DNA of 64,000 nucleotides from Candidatus Zipacnadia bacterium (GTDB lineage: Bacteria > Armatimonadota > Zipacnadia > Zipacnadales > Zipacnadaceae). Below, one piece after another: positions 3,210 to 24,113 of the stretch. Under the pieces are notes generated by a model. It did not search any database, was not told the DNA's origin, and saw only the letters and a list, made by a program, of their open reading frames with translations. The translations under genes were made by a program, and so were the position numbers. The stretch spans positions 1-64,000 of the forward strand of contig JALGUR010000018.1 of assembly GCA_029820565.1 (NCBI GenBank), written 5' to 3'. Positions within the stretch are counted from its first letter, which is position 1. Each line of letters begins with the position of its first letter.

Positions 3210-5651
3210 ATGCGTTGGCGACAAGCGGTGCCGATTGGTGTAACTCTGCTCTTGGCTGTTGTGGCGGTGGGGCTGAGTCCTACTGCGGCGCAGAGGCAGG
3301 AGGCCGAAGTTGCCTGGTCGGAGGAGTTTGATTCGTCGGACAGCCCCGCGCTGGGGCGGATTTACTATGAGGACCGGGGCAGTGGCAAGAGTGGGGAAGA
3401 GGTTGTCATTCGTGAGGTGGTCGACGGTGTGCTGCGTTATGGCCTGAAGTTTGACCCAGAGCGCAAACAGGACCGGCTCAATGTGATGTTCGGCGACTGC
3501 GTCTGGGGGCCGCCAAGAGAAACAGGATGGGGGCCGTTTGATGCGAAGCAGTACCCATTTGTAGAGATGAAGTGGCGAGGGGGCGAATTTACGTTTTACT
3601 ACGGCGGCGAGACCACCGATGGCCGCCGGCTGGGGACCTACGCCTTTCCGCCCGTGATGCGCAAAGAGACCGATGAGCAGGGACGCGAGTGGAACATCAG
3701 TCTGTTCCGCCTGGCGCCGGATAGTTCTGTCTCTACGAAGGGAACCGCGGTCAAACTGATAGGTATCAATCTGGCGTTGTACAGCCCGGGGGAAGAGGGT
3801 ATGCCCACGACCGAGGTAGACTATATCCGCGTGCGGGGCTTTACCGCCGAGGAAGCAGCCCGCGAAGAGAAGATAATTGAAGCGCTGATGGATTTTCCGC
3901 GGGGCCGCTGGCGGGGCTTTGAGGAGTTCTTTCCGTTTGGCGTATACGTCGGCTACCTGCGTAGCGACTTCGAGAGTTGGGGCGGCGATTATGAGGGGGC
4001 CTACGGCAACTACGTCAGGCATCACCTCAACTTTGTGGCCAGCAATGACGAGGTGGAATTAGGGCGATTCGGCCAGGGCGAGGCGGCGGTAGAAAGTTAC
4101 ATTACAGAGATGAATAAATTGATTGCAGCCGCCCGCGCCACGGGCATCCGACTCGGTGCCGACGTGCGGCGAATGATGGAGGGGCGCGATCCCGCCGACG
4201 GCTACCGTCAACTTCTGCCTATCACGCGGCGCTTAAATGAGGCATTTGCTGAGGATGACGTCATAGTATCCTGGAAGATCGCCGACGAGCCCGGTGTGGA
4301 TCGGTTGATCCCTCTCGCCATGATGATGCGGGCACTGCGCGAGGCTGACCCGCACAACAGACCGCAACTGATCGAGTTTAGCGCCCCGGTCAAGATGGAG
4401 CCGTTTGCGAGCTATCTAAACCTGAATTGCTGGGACCGCTATCCAATCGTCCAGGGCAGTCGGAACCCGTGGGCCATTCGTGACCTGGCCCGAGAGCATC
4501 GCCAGATTGCCTCGGATATGCCGATGTGGGCGGTGTTGCAGTCTTTCGAGACCCGGCCGCCGACACCTAAGGGATCGTATATGCGGCCCAGCGACGCGGA
4601 GATCCGTATGATGGGCTATCTGGCTCTGGCCGAGGGTGCCAAGGGGCTGTTGTGGTATGCGGGCTGGAGCGGTTACGGCCGAGATGAAGGTCTGGTCACG
4701 CGCACGGGCCAGCCGCGCGGGGGGATGTTGGATGCCCTCGCCGACCTGGGCCGCCGTTTAATCCCTATCGGCCAACTGCTACTGCACACTGATCCGCTGG
4801 ACGAGGCCGGTGTTACGATTGCTGAGGAAGTCGCGCCTGCTGATGATCACAGCCTGGCAATTAGCGTGCTGAAGCATCGCGAGCGGCCCGTCAGTTATCT
4901 GGTGGTGGTCAATGAAGACCTCAGCCGGGAGCGAACTGGTCAGGTCATTCTGGGTGGGCTGCTCGGTGAAGGGCAAGAGGTCTACGACTTGTACATACTG
5001 AGCGAAGTGCCTGCTGAAAACGGCCAGTTTGTCGCGGCTACGCTGGCCGGGGGCGATGGGCGGATTTATCTGGTAGGTTCAGCCCAAGAATTTGAGCAAG
5101 ACCGTACGCATATAGAAGCCACCCAGGCGTTAGAGGCATGCCGCGTTCTTACCCCGGATATTAGCATTGCCCGGCGGTGGGGTATAGACCTGACGGAGGT
5201 TGATAGGGCAGTGGCCGCGTGTCGCCAGGCCGCCGAGGCCGGGCAGAGCCGGGAAGCCCAGGCCCAGGCGAAACAGGCCACAGAGGCGCTGAGAGCGGCA
5301 ATTGACGGCGACTCGCTGCTGCGCATGACCAGGAAGGCTCTGGACGAGATGAGTGTGGAACTGGCTGAATTGTCTCGCATTGCCGAGCACCACAGCACTA
5401 CCCCGCGCTGGTGGACGGGGAGCGACCATCCGATGATGATACCCAATCCCGATTTCCTGGATTTGTCTAAGGAATATTGGCGGGTAGGTCGGGCCTACCG
5501 TGATTTATACATGCGCTACCTGGCCGCAGAGAAGGAAGGCTTGTGGACTGGTGTAAACCAGACACGCCTGGATTTGTTAGTGGTGCGCGATGGACTGTTA
5601 GGATGCCTGAGAGGACGGCTGACACCGGCTCACGAACCCGAGGCCGAGTAG
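3210..5651 (+). CDS. Secreted glycoside-hydrolase-like TIM-barrel protein
   Basis: I start at the ATG at 3210, where GGGAGG lies 7 nt upstream and a signal peptide (MRWRQAVPIGVTLLLAVVAVG, cleavage near TAAQ) begins. An upstream in-frame ATG at 3165 would add 15 charged residues before it. The 813-residue product has a beta-rich N-terminal domain of about 200 residues. A central region (FPFGVYVGYLRSDFESWGGD to KGLLWYAGWSGYG) follows, with an IADEP motif whose Glu sits where glycosidases place the acid/base, and an Ala-rich helical tail. I do not recognise a specific family. A secreted glycosidase or a non-catalytic relative are both possible. It lies between two Gfo/Idh dehydrogenases, suggesting carbohydrate use. 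Confidence 0.65.
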   Translation: MRWRQAVPIGVTLLLAVVAVGLSPTAAQRQEAEVAWSEEFDSSDSPALGRIYYEDRGSGKSGEEVVIREVVDGVLRYGLKFDPERKQDRLNVMFGDCVWGPPRETGWGPFDAKQYPFVEMKWRGGEFTFYYGGETTDGRRLGTYAFPPVMRKETDEQGREWNISLFRLAPDSSVSTKGTAVKLIGINLALYSPGEEGMPTTEVDYIRVRGFTAEEAAREEKIIEALMDFPRGRWRGFEEFFPFGVYVGYLRSDFESWGGDYEGAYGNYVRHHLNFVASNDEVELGRFGQGEAAVESYITEMNKLIAAARATGIRLGADVRRMMEGRDPADGYRQLLPITRRLNEAFAEDDVIVSWKIADEPGVDRLIPLAMMMRALREADPHNRPQLIEFSAPVKMEPFASYLNLNCWDRYPIVQGSRNPWAIRDLAREHRQIASDMPMWAVLQSFETRPPTPKGSYMRPSDAEIRMMGYLALAEGAKGLLWYAGWSGYGRDEGLVTRTGQPRGGMLDALADLGRRLIPIGQLLLHTDPLDEAGVTIAEEVAPADDHSLAISVLKHRERPVSYLVVVNEDLSRERTGQVILGGLLGEGQEVYDLYILSEVPAENGQFVAATLAGGDGRIYLVGSAQEFEQDRTHIEATQALEACRVLTPDISIARRWGIDLTEVDRAVAACRQAAEAGQSREAQAQAKQATEALRAAIDGDSLLRMTRKALDEMSVELAELSRIAEHHSTTPRWWTGSDHPMMIPNPDFLDLSKEYWRVGRAYRDLYMRYLAAEKEGLWTGVNQTRLDLLVVRDGLLGCLRGRLTPAHEPEAE

Positions 5652-16795: not shown

Positions 16796-17683
16796 GTGAC
16801 GGAGAAATCAACCTGGCAGACTAAAGTGGGACTGGCTGAGATGTTACGGGGCGGGGTGATTATGGATGTGGTCAATGTCGAGCACGCCAAGATCGCCGAG
16901 GATGCCGGCGCGGTATCAGTAATGGCTTTAGAGCGGGTCCCCGCCGATATTCGTGCCGAAGGCGGCGTGGCCCGTATGGCCGACCTGCATATTATTGAAG
17001 ACATTATGGAAGCCGTTAGCATTCCAGTAATGGCAAAGTGCCGCATTGGCCATTTCGCCGAGGCCCAGGTGTTAGAGTCGCTTGGCGTTGACTTTATTGA
17101 CGAGAGCGAAGTGCTTACTCCGGCCGACGAGAGTTTCCATATCTGGAAACATGACTTCAAGGTCCCCTTTGTGTGCGGCTGCACCAATCTGGGCGAAGCG
17201 CTGCGCCGCATTGGTGAGGGTGCGGCATTGATTCGCACCAAGGGCGAGGCCGGTTCGGGGAATATCGTGGAGGCTACCCGGCATATGCGAACCGTGATGA
17301 CCGGAATTGAGCACCTTAAAGGCCTGCGTGATGACGAACTAATGACCGAGGCGAAGAATATGGGCGCGCCGTTTGAATTGGTGCAGCAAGTGGCCCACGA
17401 GCGCCGGCTGCCGGTGCCCAATTTTTCCGCCGGGGGCATCGCCACTCCCGCCGACGCCGCCCTTATGATGCAACTGGGCGCTGAGTCTGTCTTTGTGGGA
17501 TCGGGCATATTCAAGTCCGAGGACCCGTCCGAGCGCGCCGCGGCGATTGTCCATGCCACCACCTACTATGAGGACCCTCACGAGGTAGCCAAAGCCTGTA
17601 AGGGTCTGAAAGGCGCGGCGATGGTGGGCATTGATGTAGCCAGCCTTCCCGACGAAGAGCGAATGGCCACCCGAGGTTGGTGA
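16796..17683 (+). CDS. pdxS: Pyridoxal 5-phosphate synthase, synthase subunit
   Basis: A 295-residue protein starting at GTG 16796 with GAGGAGG upstream. PdxS makes PLP from ribose 5-phosphate, glyceraldehyde 3-phosphate and ammonia in a dodecamer that binds PdxT. It is a beta/alpha barrel with the two catalytic lysines in recognisable settings: VMAKCRIGH and [10 protein letters not shown]. Other landmarks are [35 protein letters not shown] and the C-terminal [32 protein letters not shown] phosphate-site region. Its partner pdxT is at 19471, separated by a glycosyltransferase gene rather than directly adjacent. Confidence 0.97.
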
Positions 17684-17762
17684 GGCGGGTTTGCCCGCCA
17701 ACGCGGGACCCGCAGCGGCGGACGCCGGCTCCGGGACGGGCCTGCCGCCGACCGTACGCGAT

Positions 17763-19427
17763 ATGTCTATGAATCGCACTCGCCCGCAACTCGCAGTGTT
17801 GTGGCTGTTGCTGCTATTTATCCCACAGGCCGCGCTCCTGTACTTCTTCCGCGTTTTCACGGTAGATGATACCTGGATATTTTTGCGTTATGCACAGAAT
17901 CTGGCGGCGGGCCACGGCTTGGTGTTCAATCCCGGTGAGGCCGTTGAAGGCTATACTTCCTTCCTGTGGGCCATTCTCCTGGCCGGCGGGATAAAAGCCG
18001 GCGCCGACGGCCTTTTAGTAGCCCGGGTCCTGGGAGTGGCGCTGGCGCTGGCTACCACCGTCGTCGGTTACCTGCTGGGGCGGCGAGTGACGCCAAACGG
18101 TGGTTACCTCACCTTGCTGGCTCCGGCCGGTTTGGCCACCAGTGTGCCTCTGGGGGTGTGGGCGATGAGCGGGATGGGCACGGTGCTGTTCACCTTTTTT
18201 GTCACCCTCACCTTGTACTTGCACCTGCAATCTACCACCCCCCTCTGTGTCCCCCCGCATGCGGGGGGATATAGTCCTCCGTGTGTCCCCCCGCTTGCGG
18301 GGGGATATAACCCTTCCTGTGTCCCCCCGCTTGCGGGGGGATATAGAGGGGTAAGAACCGGGCGCTCTCACCCCTTCCTGGCGGCTGCCGGCTGGGTGTG
18401 CGGGTTAGCCGCTCTCAGCCGACCCGAGGGCTGGCTGTTTCTGGTCATCATACTCGGCCACCGCCTGTGGCGGCCCACCCGCCACGGACGCTGGGCCGAT
18501 GCCGTAGCCTACCTCGGGCCCTTCCTGGCCTTGACCGTGCCTCATCTATTGTGGCGCCACTCCTATTATGGCGATTGGGTGCCCAATACTTTCTACATCA
18601 AGGCGATACTCACCAAGGAGGCGGGCGTGCTGTATACCTGGAATTTTCTCCAGTTCCACGGTGGCCTGGTTTTCCTCGCCCTGTGTGCGCTGCCTCTGGC
18701 CCTGCGCCGGCGCAGCGAGGAGTGGACGGCAGTAGCGATGGTCGTGTTGTTATGGACGGTTTACGTGGCCCGGATGGGCGATTGGATGCCCCTGTTCCGC
18801 TTCTTCATACCTATCCTACCCCTATGCTTTGTCCTGCTACAGACTGGCGTAGTGGAACTGGCGCAGGCGCTGAGCAATGTAGCAGTCAGCCGCACCGGCC
18901 TGCGCCTGCTGGTAGGGCTGCTACTCCTGGCAGCCTCAGGGGCGCTTATCTGTCAAGTCCACGCCAACCGAGATCTGCGGGGGATGAGTCCGAATCAGTT
19001 ATACGCGCGAGTGGGCAGAGAGTTGCGACAATACGCTCAACCTGGCGATACTCTGGCCGCCATTGATGCCGGCGCCGTACCCTATTTCTCCGAGTTGCCT
19101 ACTACTGACATCATCGGTCTAACTGATGCTCACATCGCTCACACTCCGTACCAGTACTATGAGTTTGACCGCCCAATATTCGGACATGAGTACGCCGCCT
19201 GGCTGCGTTATGATGGTGCGTACATACTGGGCAAGAAACCTACCTTCATTGAACTTCCCACGGGAGGAAAGGTGCTGGCCGGCGGAGAAGTTATCTCCAC
19301 CCGGGGTGAAGTCTACCTGTTGATGGACGAGCCCGAATTTCAGGCCAACTATGTGCCGCTATTTGAACGAGGTCACTTGACAATCTTCATCCGCAAAGAC
19401 CAAGTCAAACAGCATCAGTTGAGATAG
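17763..19427 (+). CDS. Polytopic membrane glycosyltransferase with in-frame palindrome repeats
   Basis: The frame opens at TTG 17691, but those first 24 codons are Ala/Gly/Pro-rich and overlie a small palindrome. I prefer the ATG at 17763 or 17769, directly before the first TM helix, although no clear ribosome binding site is seen. The 554-residue product has about ten TM helices and the opening [38 protein letters not shown]. That is typical of AftB-like GT-C arabinofuranosyl/mannosyl transferases using polyprenyl-phosphate sugars, with catalytic Asp-Asp after TM1. Residues about 162-197 are three 12-residue repeats ([12 protein letters not shown]-like) encoded by tandem DNA palindromes, inserted in a hydrophilic loop before the [11 protein letters not shown] segment. 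It separates pdxS from pdxT. Confidence 0.8.
18240..18352. repeat. Tandem palindromic repeat array inside a coding region
   Basis: Three units start at 18246, 18282 and 18318, an exact 36-nt period. Each has the core tccccccgcNtgcgggggga. Outer arms cccctc (18240-18245) and gaggggt (18346-18352) pair with each other, enclosing the array. The reading frame stays open, each unit giving 12 residues. Related copies lie at 22590-22752 and 23361-23402. The flank atatagaggggtaag is identical here and at 22741-22753. Confidence 0.9.
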
Positions 19428-19470
19428 GACAAAATGCGCCCAAGACGCATTGGCGGATGGTAACGCAATT

Positions 19471-20046
19471 ATGACTGCACGGATAGGCATACTGGCACTA
19501 CAAGGCGATTTTGCCAAGCATCTGGAGGCGTTCTCCGAATTACACTGTGAGGCACTCCCTGTTAAACGTCCCCAGGAAGTGATGGACTGCCAGGGTCTGG
19601 TAATTCCCGGAGGCGAGAGCACGACCATCGGCCGGCTCTGCCAGCGTTTTGGGGTGGATGAAGCGATAATGGAACTTTACCAGCGTGGAGCGGCCATCTG
19701 GGGCACGTGTGCGGGGATGATACTTCTGGCCAAGGAAATTGAGGGCAGCGACCAGTGGCGGCTGGGGCTGATGGATATAGCCGTGCGCCGCAATGCCTTT
19801 GGCCGCCAGGTGGACAGTTTCGAGACCGACTTGACGGTGGAAGGTATACCCGACGGGCCAGTGCGCACCGTTTTCATCCGGGCCCCGTACGTGACTCGCG
19901 TCTGGGGAGATGCCAAAGGCATGGCTGCCTTCGACGATAAGATAGTAATGGTGCAACAGGGCAACCTGTTGGCTACCGCTTTCCACCCTGAACTGACCGA
20001 AGATAGGCGCGTCCAGCAATATTTCCTGGGTATGGTGCAACAATGA
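19471..20046 (+). CDS. pdxT: Pyridoxal 5-phosphate synthase, glutaminase subunit
   Basis: A 191-residue class I glutamine amidotransferase from the ATG at 19471. An upstream in-frame TTG at 19450 adds seven unlikely residues, and the ribosome binding site is weak. It supplies ammonia from glutamine to PdxS. Landmarks: IGILALQGDF, VIPGGESTTIGRL, the nucleophile in WGTCAGMILLA, FIRAPYV, and the catalytic His-x-Glu in AFHPELTEDRR. All triad residues are present. Its stop overlaps the start of the nucleotidyltransferase as ATGA. Confidence 0.97.
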   Translation: MTARIGILALQGDFAKHLEAFSELHCEALPVKRPQEVMDCQGLVIPGGESTTIGRLCQRFGVDEAIMELYQRGAAIWGTCAGMILLAKEIEGSDQWRLGLMDIAVRRNAFGRQVDSFETDLTVEGIPDGPVRTVFIRAPYVTRVWGDAKGMAAFDDKIVMVQQGNLLATAFHPELTEDRRVQQYFLGMVQQ

Positions 20047-22572: not shown

Positions 22573-22589
22573 CACCCATCCACTTTGCC

Positions 22590-22752
22590 CCCCTGTGTCC
22601 CCCCGCAAGCGGGGGGATAGGAGTTGCGCCCCCGGGTGTTGTGAGTAGAGAACCTCTGTCCCCCTCGCAAGCGGGGGGATAGGAGCTGCGCGCCCGGGGG
22701 TTGTCAGTAGAGAACCTATGTCCCCCCGCATGCGGGGGGATATAGAGGGGTA
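22590..22752. repeat. Intergenic tandem palindromic repeats
   Basis: Palindrome cores tcccc(c/t)cgcNNgcgggggga lie at 22598-22617, 22659-22679 and 22721-22740, about 61 nt apart. The intervening 40 nt are similar to each other (gtagagaacct shared), so these are tandem repeats rather than CRISPR spacers. The right end atatagaggggtaag is identical to that of the array inside the glycosyltransferase gene. The array ends just before FtsW, whose normal start codon is missing. Confidence 0.88.
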
Positions 22753-22832
22753 AGTAGTTAAGGAGTGAGCCATTCATAGATTCTGGCCGTCGCAACGAAA
22801 TTATTCTAATAGCCCTCACCACTGTCGTCGGA

Positions 22833-24113
22833 GTGGTAGGGCTGGCGCTGGTCTTTGCCGCCACTAATGAGCCGATAGCCCGGGCCTTGCGCGCGGCCGT
22901 GGTGCCCGGTGCGCTGCTGGCCGCTGCACTGCTGCTGGACATAATCCCCGGTCCCCGCGGCCGGCTGCTGCTGCCGATGGTGGCTCTGCTAACTACTCTG
23001 AGTGTGGTGTTTCTGTCTCGAATAGAGATGGTGCTGGCCACCAAGCAGATTATGTGGGTGCTGATGGGCAGCGCTTTGCTGGTGGCTACTTATTTTCTGA
23101 TAGATGATGTCAGGGACCTGGCCCGCCTGAAGTACTTGGCCGGGGGCAGTGCGGTGGCACTATTAGCCATAACTGCTGTATGGGGCACCGAGCAACACGG
23201 CGCCCGTCTATGGTTAGGTATTCCTGGCGCATTCTCCTTTCAGGCCGGCGAAGTCGCCAAACTGCTGATGGTTATCTTCTTAGCTGGCTACATAGCCGAA
23301 CGCGTCCCAACCTCCGGGCTCGGCCACCGCCGACCAGCCGCACGCCCCCACGCCCCGCTTACCCCCCTGTACCCCCCCGCTTGCGGGGGGATTATGGGGG
23401 GTTGCAAGTACTCTGCCCCGCTATTGATAATAGTGATTTTGGGGCTTGCTCTGCTTATCAGCCAACGCGATTTGGGGGCCGCTGCTTTATTCTTCGGGCT
23501 GTTTGTGGCAATGCTGTATCTGGGTACTGGCCGTAAAGATTACGCTGTGGGTGGCATTGCCGTGTTCTTAGCCGGGGCCGTAGCCGCCTACTATACCTTT
23601 CCCCACGCAGCCGCCCGAGTGCAGGCCTGGCTGAATCCCTGGCAAGCCCCGCAGCAGTCAGGCTACCAGCCTCTCCAGGCCCTGTTCTGCTTGGCGGAAG
23701 GAGGAATAGTCGGTACGGGTCTTGGGCGGATACCAATTGGTGCCCTGCCTGCTGCGGGGACCGATCTAATCCTGGCTGTAGTGGGCCACGATATAGGCCT
23801 GCTCGGCACGCTGGCTGTGGTTATGATGTATGCCTTCTTCTGCTTTCGGGCTTATGATATAGCCCGAGGTGCTACCGACCGCTTCGGTGCCCTATTGGCC
23901 GCTGGCATAGCCACCATATTTGCCCTCCAGAGCCTGCTTATCATCGGCGGGGTAGTCCGGCTCATCCCGCTCACCGGCATTACCTTGCCTTTCCTCAGTT
24001 ACGGCGGTACTTCAATGATTATCAATTTCATTGCCGTCGGCCTGTTAATGACAGTGGTGCGCGACTGTACGCGGCCCGAATCTGGCCGCCTCACCCTCTC
24101 CCCCTCTCCGTAG
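22833..24113 (+). CDS. FtsW/RodA/SpoVE-family peptidoglycan polymerase
   Basis: A SEDS-family membrane protein, lipid II glycosyltransferase partner of the class B PBP that follows. Landmarks: QHGARLWLGIPGAFSFQAGEVAKLLMVIFLA, QRDLGAAAL, ALFCLAEGGIVGTGLG and ITLPFLSYGGTSMIINF. GTG 22833 gives 426 residues but lacks most of the first TM helix, which is encoded in frame from about 22776 (NEIILIALTTVVGVVGLALV). There is no ATG, GTG or TTG between the stop at 22755 and 22833. An AAGGAG at 22760-22765 sits 10 nt before an ATA codon at 22776, a rare-start candidate. A repeat palindrome adds about 14 residues near 177-190. The C-terminus SGRLTLSPSP derives from another repeat. Confidence 0.9.
   Translation: MVGLALVFAATNEPIARALRAAVVPGALLAAALLLDIIPGPRGRLLLPMVALLTTLSVVFLSRIEMVLATKQIMWVLMGSALLVATYFLIDDVRDLARLKYLAGGSAVALLAITAVWGTEQHGARLWLGIPGAFSFQAGEVAKLLMVIFLAGYIAERVPTSGLGHRRPAARPHAPLTPLYPPACGGIMGGCKYSAPLLIIVILGLALLISQRDLGAAALFFGLFVAMLYLGTGRKDYAVGGIAVFLAGAVAAYYTFPHAAARVQAWLNPWQAPQQSGYQPLQALFCLAEGGIVGTGLGRIPIGALPAAGTDLILAVVGHDIGLLGTLAVVMMYAFFCFRAYDIARGATDRFGALLAAGIATIFALQSLLIIGGVVRLIPLTGITLPFLSYGGTSMIINFIAVGLLMTVVRDCTRPESGRLTLSPSP
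23361..23402. repeat. Palindromic repeat inside the FtsW gene
   Basis: Outer arms acccccc and ggggggt enclose the core cccccccgcttgcgggggg (23372-23390). The element is in frame and encodes [14 protein letters not shown] between a Pro/Arg-rich stretch and the next TM helix, so it lengthens a loop. It is the same family as the arrays at 18240 and 22590. Confidence 0.85.

Follow-up and report, generated by a model that had tools for sequence, protein, structure and literature searches.

A nested palindromic element that is probably dispersed through the genome of a Candidatus Zipacnadia bacterium and lies in frame in several conserved genes

The window analysed here, a stretch of 64,000 nucleotides from a Candidatus Zipacnadia bacterium (contig JALGUR010000018.1), harbours an uninterrupted open reading frame for a GT-C membrane glycosyltransferase (Table 1), with pdxS (PF01680) on one side and pdxT (PF01174) on the other. 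Usually, pdxS and pdxT are adjacent; here, they are split by the glycosyltransferase gene (window 16796-20046). The encoded protein resembles the arabinofuranosyltransferase AftB. A structure-database search matched it to the AftB cryo-EM chain 9dlf_C (E=4.5e-6), its score against NCBIfam NF041481 was 31 bits, far under the cut-off of 1050, and we name it AftB-like rather than AftB. It was matched in 14 of the 31 genomes searched, the window's own genome being counted among the 14. Related genomes encode homologues that match before and after an insert and carry a linker of 1-8 residues at this place, compared to about 40 residues in the window protein; the matches break at query residues ~155 and 205-211, i.e. 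at the insert. Hydrophobic segments flank the inserted loop; a location on the cytoplasmic side is suggested by the short linkers of the homologues, which are basic. A preliminary description of this DNA had called the loop hydrophilic, but its hydropathy turned out to be near-neutral.

Each of the three 36-nt units in the insert contains a 20-nt palindrome, TCCCCCCGC(AT/TT)GCGGGGGGA. As had been described, the palindromes follow each other at a distance of 36 nt with the frame kept, outer arms are present around the array, and the motif CVPPxAGGY is common to all three units; the claimed exact 12-residue repeat shrinks to these 9 of the 12 residues. The array holds an inverted repeat of 35 nt with 86% complementarity. 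As single-stranded DNA, it reaches -44.4 kcal/mol (z = -8.3), and one long hairpin is possible through pairing of unit 1 with unit 3. Spacers differ among the units, while the cores differ only in CAT/CTT. It is at the DNA level that the repeat is conserved: this sole core difference is nonsynonymous, and the same core is also found between genes.

Table 1. Features of the glycosyltransferase locus, further copies of the element in the window, and inserts in genes elsewhere in the host genome.
Feature	Position	Strand	Details
AftB-like GT-C membrane glycosyltransferase gene	17763..19427	+	~554 aa; ATG at 17763, stop ends at 19427
Whole inserted element in the glycosyltransferase gene	18240..18359	+	Outer arm CCCCTC, three inner hairpins, outer arm GAGGGG, tail TAAGAACC; homologue linkers short, ~40 extra residues; net about +120 nt; relatives without insert
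Left outer arm	18240-18245	+	CCCCTC
Unit 1	18246..18281	+	TGTG + TCCCCCCGCATGCGGGGGGA + spacer; 12 residues encoded
Unit 2	18282..18317	+	Core apex TT; 12 residues encoded
Unit 3	18318..18353	+	Core apex TT; 12 residues encoded; contains the right outer arm
Right outer arm	18346-18351	+	GAGGGG
Second window copy	22588..22753	+	Three hairpins in one outer-arm pair; cores at 22598, 22660, 22721; period 62/61; between an FHA-like ORF and the ftsW/rodA gene
Third window copy, FtsW/RodA insert	23353..23401	-	Single hairpin, in frame in a cell-wall gene of FtsW/RodA/SpoVE type (ORF 22758-24110; PF01098, 232.8 bits); covariance model 66.3 bits; net +45 to +81 nt; same-genus orthologue (G001, 74-75% identity) without insert
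DnaE (replicative DNA polymerase) insert	C135:75002		Net +69 nt, in a linker; relatives without insert
GH15 hydrolase insert	C63:841		Net +33 nt, 9 nt replaced; relatives without insert
GFO/IDH/MocA oxidoreductase insert	C77:69162		Net +42 nt; relatives without insert
CPBP/Rce1 protease insert	C153:12927		Net +54 nt; relatives without insert

The palindrome is not restricted to this gene. Allowing up to 3 mismatches, a search of the window for the core returned 7 sites, where dinucleotide-preserving shuffles predict 0.15. The host genome, a metagenome bin of 3.41 Mb and about 90% completeness, contains 29 core sites versus 0 for the reversed pattern that served as control; two of the 29 are 3-mismatch matches, one of which (C27) is chance-like. 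The census of elements was based on pattern search and a covariance-model search with a model from 11 single copies. Both agree on an identical set of 18 loci with about 28 cores, and neither detected degenerate or weaker copies elsewhere in the host genome at E<=1. The element follows the plan CCCCCC-N4-TCCCCCCGC-NN-GCGGGGGGA-N4-GGGGGG, with TAAGAACC behind it in about half of the loci. Outer arms are paired in 94% of cells and inner arms in 100%, i.e. terminal inverted repeats are present; stem covariation was uninformative as the pairs are almost invariant, and an Rfam search with the element gave no match. Two genomes of the same genus (G001 and G002) contain zero copies, and one from the host's family (G008) contains three. 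About eight of the 18 loci are intergenic, six clearly intragenic and some less clean. One intergenic copy, on C94, provides the stop codon (CCCCCCATAA) of an upstream glycosyltransferase-like gene (L056 3277-3295). We also observed a second palindrome, CCCTCCCCGCTTGCGGGGAGGGTAGGGTGGGG, which forms composites with arrays of 75-nt period (L058 4323-4357; L060 3977-4000, 4958-4980); similar sequences flank the element at some loci of G008, G048 and G059.

Had the copies been overwhelmingly intergenic genome-wide, the reading given in the preliminary description would have been in doubt. Instead, six conserved and apparently working genes carry the insert, and their orthologues are without it at all six sites. 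In the five genes other than that of the glycosyltransferase, the copy is a single one, and the orthologues compared have 55-89% identity. Net length gains, where measured, are multiples of 3 throughout, with uncertain exact boundaries as the closest orthologues are 55-75% identical apart from that of GH15. The frame is kept in 6/6 clean cases (1/729 if the chance is 1/3 each), a figure that is partly circular because the genes were recognised by their open frames. For the five testable host genes, dN/dS against relatives is ~0.07-0.3 at saturated distances. Three reading frames are used, yielding PPxAGG, PPACGG/PPASGG and SPRLRGD peptides; a conserved encoded peptide is absent, the peptides differing with the frame. 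This use of three frames with different peptides argues that the element inserts as DNA rather than as a peptide. A protein-level repeat, with a PPxAGG linker under functional selection in the glycosyltransferase, would explain the retention of CVPPxAGGY in three units, but we regard it as highly improbable given that different genes read the same DNA in three frames and copies are also found between genes, that the sole core difference alters the protein, that divergence at synonymous sites is not below that at nonsynonymous sites, and that homologues manage without the insert. Nor is the element, which had been described as coding-compatible, tuned for coding: on average, a copy leaves 4.45 of 6 frames open, compared to 4.63 for shuffled copies (4.5 vs 4.6 when rounded) and 3.99 for random 42-mers from the window. 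Coding compatibility is a by-product of base composition.

Among the less clean loci, one copy (C105) is placed between two GT4 domains of one ORF, probably two genes, another (C135:64132), which is a 75-nt array, in a truncated methylase/Mrr ORF, and a third (C139) in an apparently frameshifted methylase with intein. The latter gene (L060, ~3905-5322, minus strand) and a counterpart from a different genome (L157, 1-2598, minus strand) are DNA methylases interrupted by an intein with a DUF559 (Vsr-like) nuclease domain, and both have palindromic elements at matching places in the N-terminal part of the intein. A PDB search with the GH15 protein gave no match. The apparently frameshifted copy, together with the facts that the genome is a metagenome bin and that palindromes are hard to assemble, could point to an assembly artefact or a dead gene. 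We give this very little credence: spacers differ among the three units of the glycosyltransferase array, its ORF remains open throughout, with homology before and after the array, and the pattern recurs in other assemblies.

At several loci, inner hairpins multiply inside one outer-arm pair, with one to three per pair. The period is 36 nt in the glycosyltransferase gene, 75 nt in C135 and C139, and 61/62 nt at window positions 22598-22740, at C18:43343 (L050 7344-7424) and at C94:3281 (L056 3281-3361). Periods in ORFs (36, 75) are hence multiples of 3 and those between genes (61/62) are not, in only about five independent arrays. The preliminary description attributed the 36-nt period to selection for frame. 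Selection does explain which in-gene copies survive, but the contrast in period is only suggestive with so few arrays; from the interpretation as a whole, the dispersed palindrome entering genes in frame stands, while the coding compatibility is not a matter of tuning and the argument from the period is weak. Two loci, C18:39746 and C18:43343, are part of a duplicated block with flanks of 93% identity and have one and two inner hairpins, respectively, the difference being one 61-nt hairpin-plus-spacer inside the same outer arms. In this region, the dnaX start has been duplicated together with the sequence upstream of it, beside two paralogous genes (L050 3434-3834, 7210-7492), and each duplicate has an element. 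Spacers of 41 nt separate the hairpins of the 61-nt arrays and show no relationship from one locus to another; no donor was found for that of C18:43343, which is unique in the genome. A 61/62-nt period with unrelated spacers at three loci is reminiscent of a degenerate CRISPR array of type I-E. This reading is extremely improbable since Cas1 is absent from the bin (~90% complete), each array is enclosed by one outer-arm pair, spacers in the window arrays are ~90% alike, and other arrays have periods of 36 and 75. In the glycosyltransferase gene, the inner hairpin plus 16 nt may have been tandemly duplicated twice, and products of a length that is not a multiple of 3 would have been lost through selection on the gene.

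We consider it very probable that a dispersed, non-autonomous palindromic element of about 42-49 bp has spread through the genome, is mobilised in trans and survives inside genes as frame-keeping copies, the array being one of its copies. The element consists of the inner hairpin TCCCCCCGC-NN-GCGGGGGGA placed inside an outer pair of C6/G6 arms, and the TAAGAACC tail often follows. But, what moves it? Copies may be moved in trans by an activity, either of the host or of a transposase, that works on the folded strand, and in-gene copies would persist where the frame is kept and loops or linkers are hit. Neither a transposase or other mobilising factor for the element nor a parental transposon was found, and the full nested pattern had no match in viral contigs, by which phage carriage was rejected. 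No clean target-site duplication was found; the copy in the GFO/IDH/MocA gene may duplicate GGC, and that in the GH15 gene is not a simple insertion.

Membership in an ordinary REP family with a degenerate tag, mobilised by a RAYT (REP-associated tyrosine transposase), would be in line with published intragenic REPs, including one in DnaE of R. conorii (PMC3733652), and with related palindromes in G048 and G059 that have TGTAG adjoining the stem. Y1_Tnp genes are present in all four relatives tested and, in four copies, in the host genome. We nevertheless deem this origin unlikely: GTAG, CGTC or GTGG adjoins the stem at none of the 18 loci, and none of 25 Y1_Tnp loci (4 own, 21 in four carrier relatives, from incomplete bins) is flanked by the palindrome, the sole core near any of them being ~1.4 kb away. 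Other palindromes (e.g. TAGGGCGGGCACTTGTGCCCGCCGTA) occur near the Y1 transposase genes of the host and are possibly their own REPs (L078 1263-1288, 3075-3130; L080 989-1014, 1896-1987). Spread without any transposase, by replication slippage, hairpin-templated repair or gene conversion between palindromes, would fit the near-perfect cores with divergent spacers, the changed unit number within the duplicated block, the lack of a mobiliser and the GH15 copy, which replaces 9 nt. It appears quite improbable to us, as the same sequence of 42-49 bp, in places with the TAAGAACC tail, at unrelated sites needs transfer between loci.

Beyond the host, the left arm plus core was found in GTDB species genomes which, among the matches listed, belong to Anaerolineae, Chloroflexaceae, Armatimonadota, WS1, Poribacteria, Hydrogenedentota, Calditrichaeota, Planctomycetota, bacterium UASB270 and others. 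Inspection of ORFs placed the majority of the listed matches between genes. In-frame copies occur in Poribacteria, Armatimonadota and Chloroflexota. Genes with in-frame copies outside the host genome encode PurD, SDR reductase, Omp85/POTRA, TPR, PQQ, ADP-ribosylglycohydrolase, Type ISP, N6_N4 methylase-intein and S4-FtsJ proteins; for PurD and SDR only, the insert was shown to be absent from relatives, by comparison with PDB chains. In two Poribacteria bins (JAJECO, JAJEEK), 5/5 loci lie in Pfam-supported ORFs. In other genomes, such ORFs hold 6/11 nested copies versus 4/75 of those without the right arm (Fisher p = 1.7e-4), a rule that was set after seeing the data and with copies within one bin not being independent; the held-out remainder points in the same direction without significance (1/4 nested vs 0-1/32 partial). 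As a tentative extension, which we think possible although rather less likely than its opposite, the element might represent a multi-phylum family of untagged nested palindromes, independent of RAYTs and repeatedly entering genes in frame; gene-entering copies would be distinguished by having the outer arm pair, within which the inner hairpin could multiply.

For palindromes that invade genes, Rickettsia is the best-known host, its tolerance of them often being put down to genome decay; some REP-rich genomes are known for them as well. An untagged family in uncultured candidate phyla, present in DnaE and FtsW/RodA and read in several frames, argues that in-frame palindromes are a recurrent and general source of protein loops. 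The comparative set of host genes (PurD, Omp85, SDR, FtsJ and others) can be used for questions of tolerance and mobility. For annotation, PPQAGGYRG, PPACGG or SPRLRGD in metagenome proteins should be taken as a warning that the segment is probably derived from the element.

How does the element relate to known systems? REPIN/BIME composites combine several hairpins at fixed spacing within one unit, and the element likewise has several hairpins at fixed spacing (61/62 or 75 nt) in one unit; unlike in these composites, its spacers are unrelated between loci, its inner palindrome is nearly loopless and the unit is bounded by its own arm pair. With Rickettsia palindromic elements (RPEs), regarded in a 2024 review as the extreme case of in-gene palindromes (PMC10969869), it shares a dispersed palindrome in frame in unrelated genes and a protein that tolerates the insert (PMC3733652, PMC10969869). 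The RPE-like behaviour assumed in the preliminary description is thus supported by in-frame insertion in six unrelated genes with insert-free orthologues. RPEs, compared here by description, are found in Rickettsia, measure ~150 bp and form ten families, each with a conserved peptide, whereas the element resides in non-rickettsial hosts, is G+C-rich and only 42-49 bp long, has nested C6/G6 arms and uses several frames. A survey of GTAG/CGTC REPs described REPs of 20-40 bp inside genes of several species, including Opitutus terrae, Thauera, Thioalkalivibrio and Xanthomonas, with cases in DnaE of R. conorii and, elsewhere, in genes for repair, as well as clusters that encode 43-82 aa (PMC3733652). 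These REPs, too, are palindromes inside and between genes, single or grouped, but they are tagged, whereas the element is without tag at 18/18 loci, flanks none of the RAYT loci examined and encloses one to three hairpins in outer arms. Like MITEs, it is short and non-coding, has terminal inverted repeats and is presumably moved in trans; it is shorter than the 70-300 bp of MITEs (PMC3733652), and no parental transposon or clear target-site duplication was found. Insertion of palindromes into genes is therefore already known, while the family itself, judged against the openly licensed literature and with RPEs compared by description, appears new: untagged, nested, read in several frames, spread over many candidate phyla and multiplying its inner hairpin.
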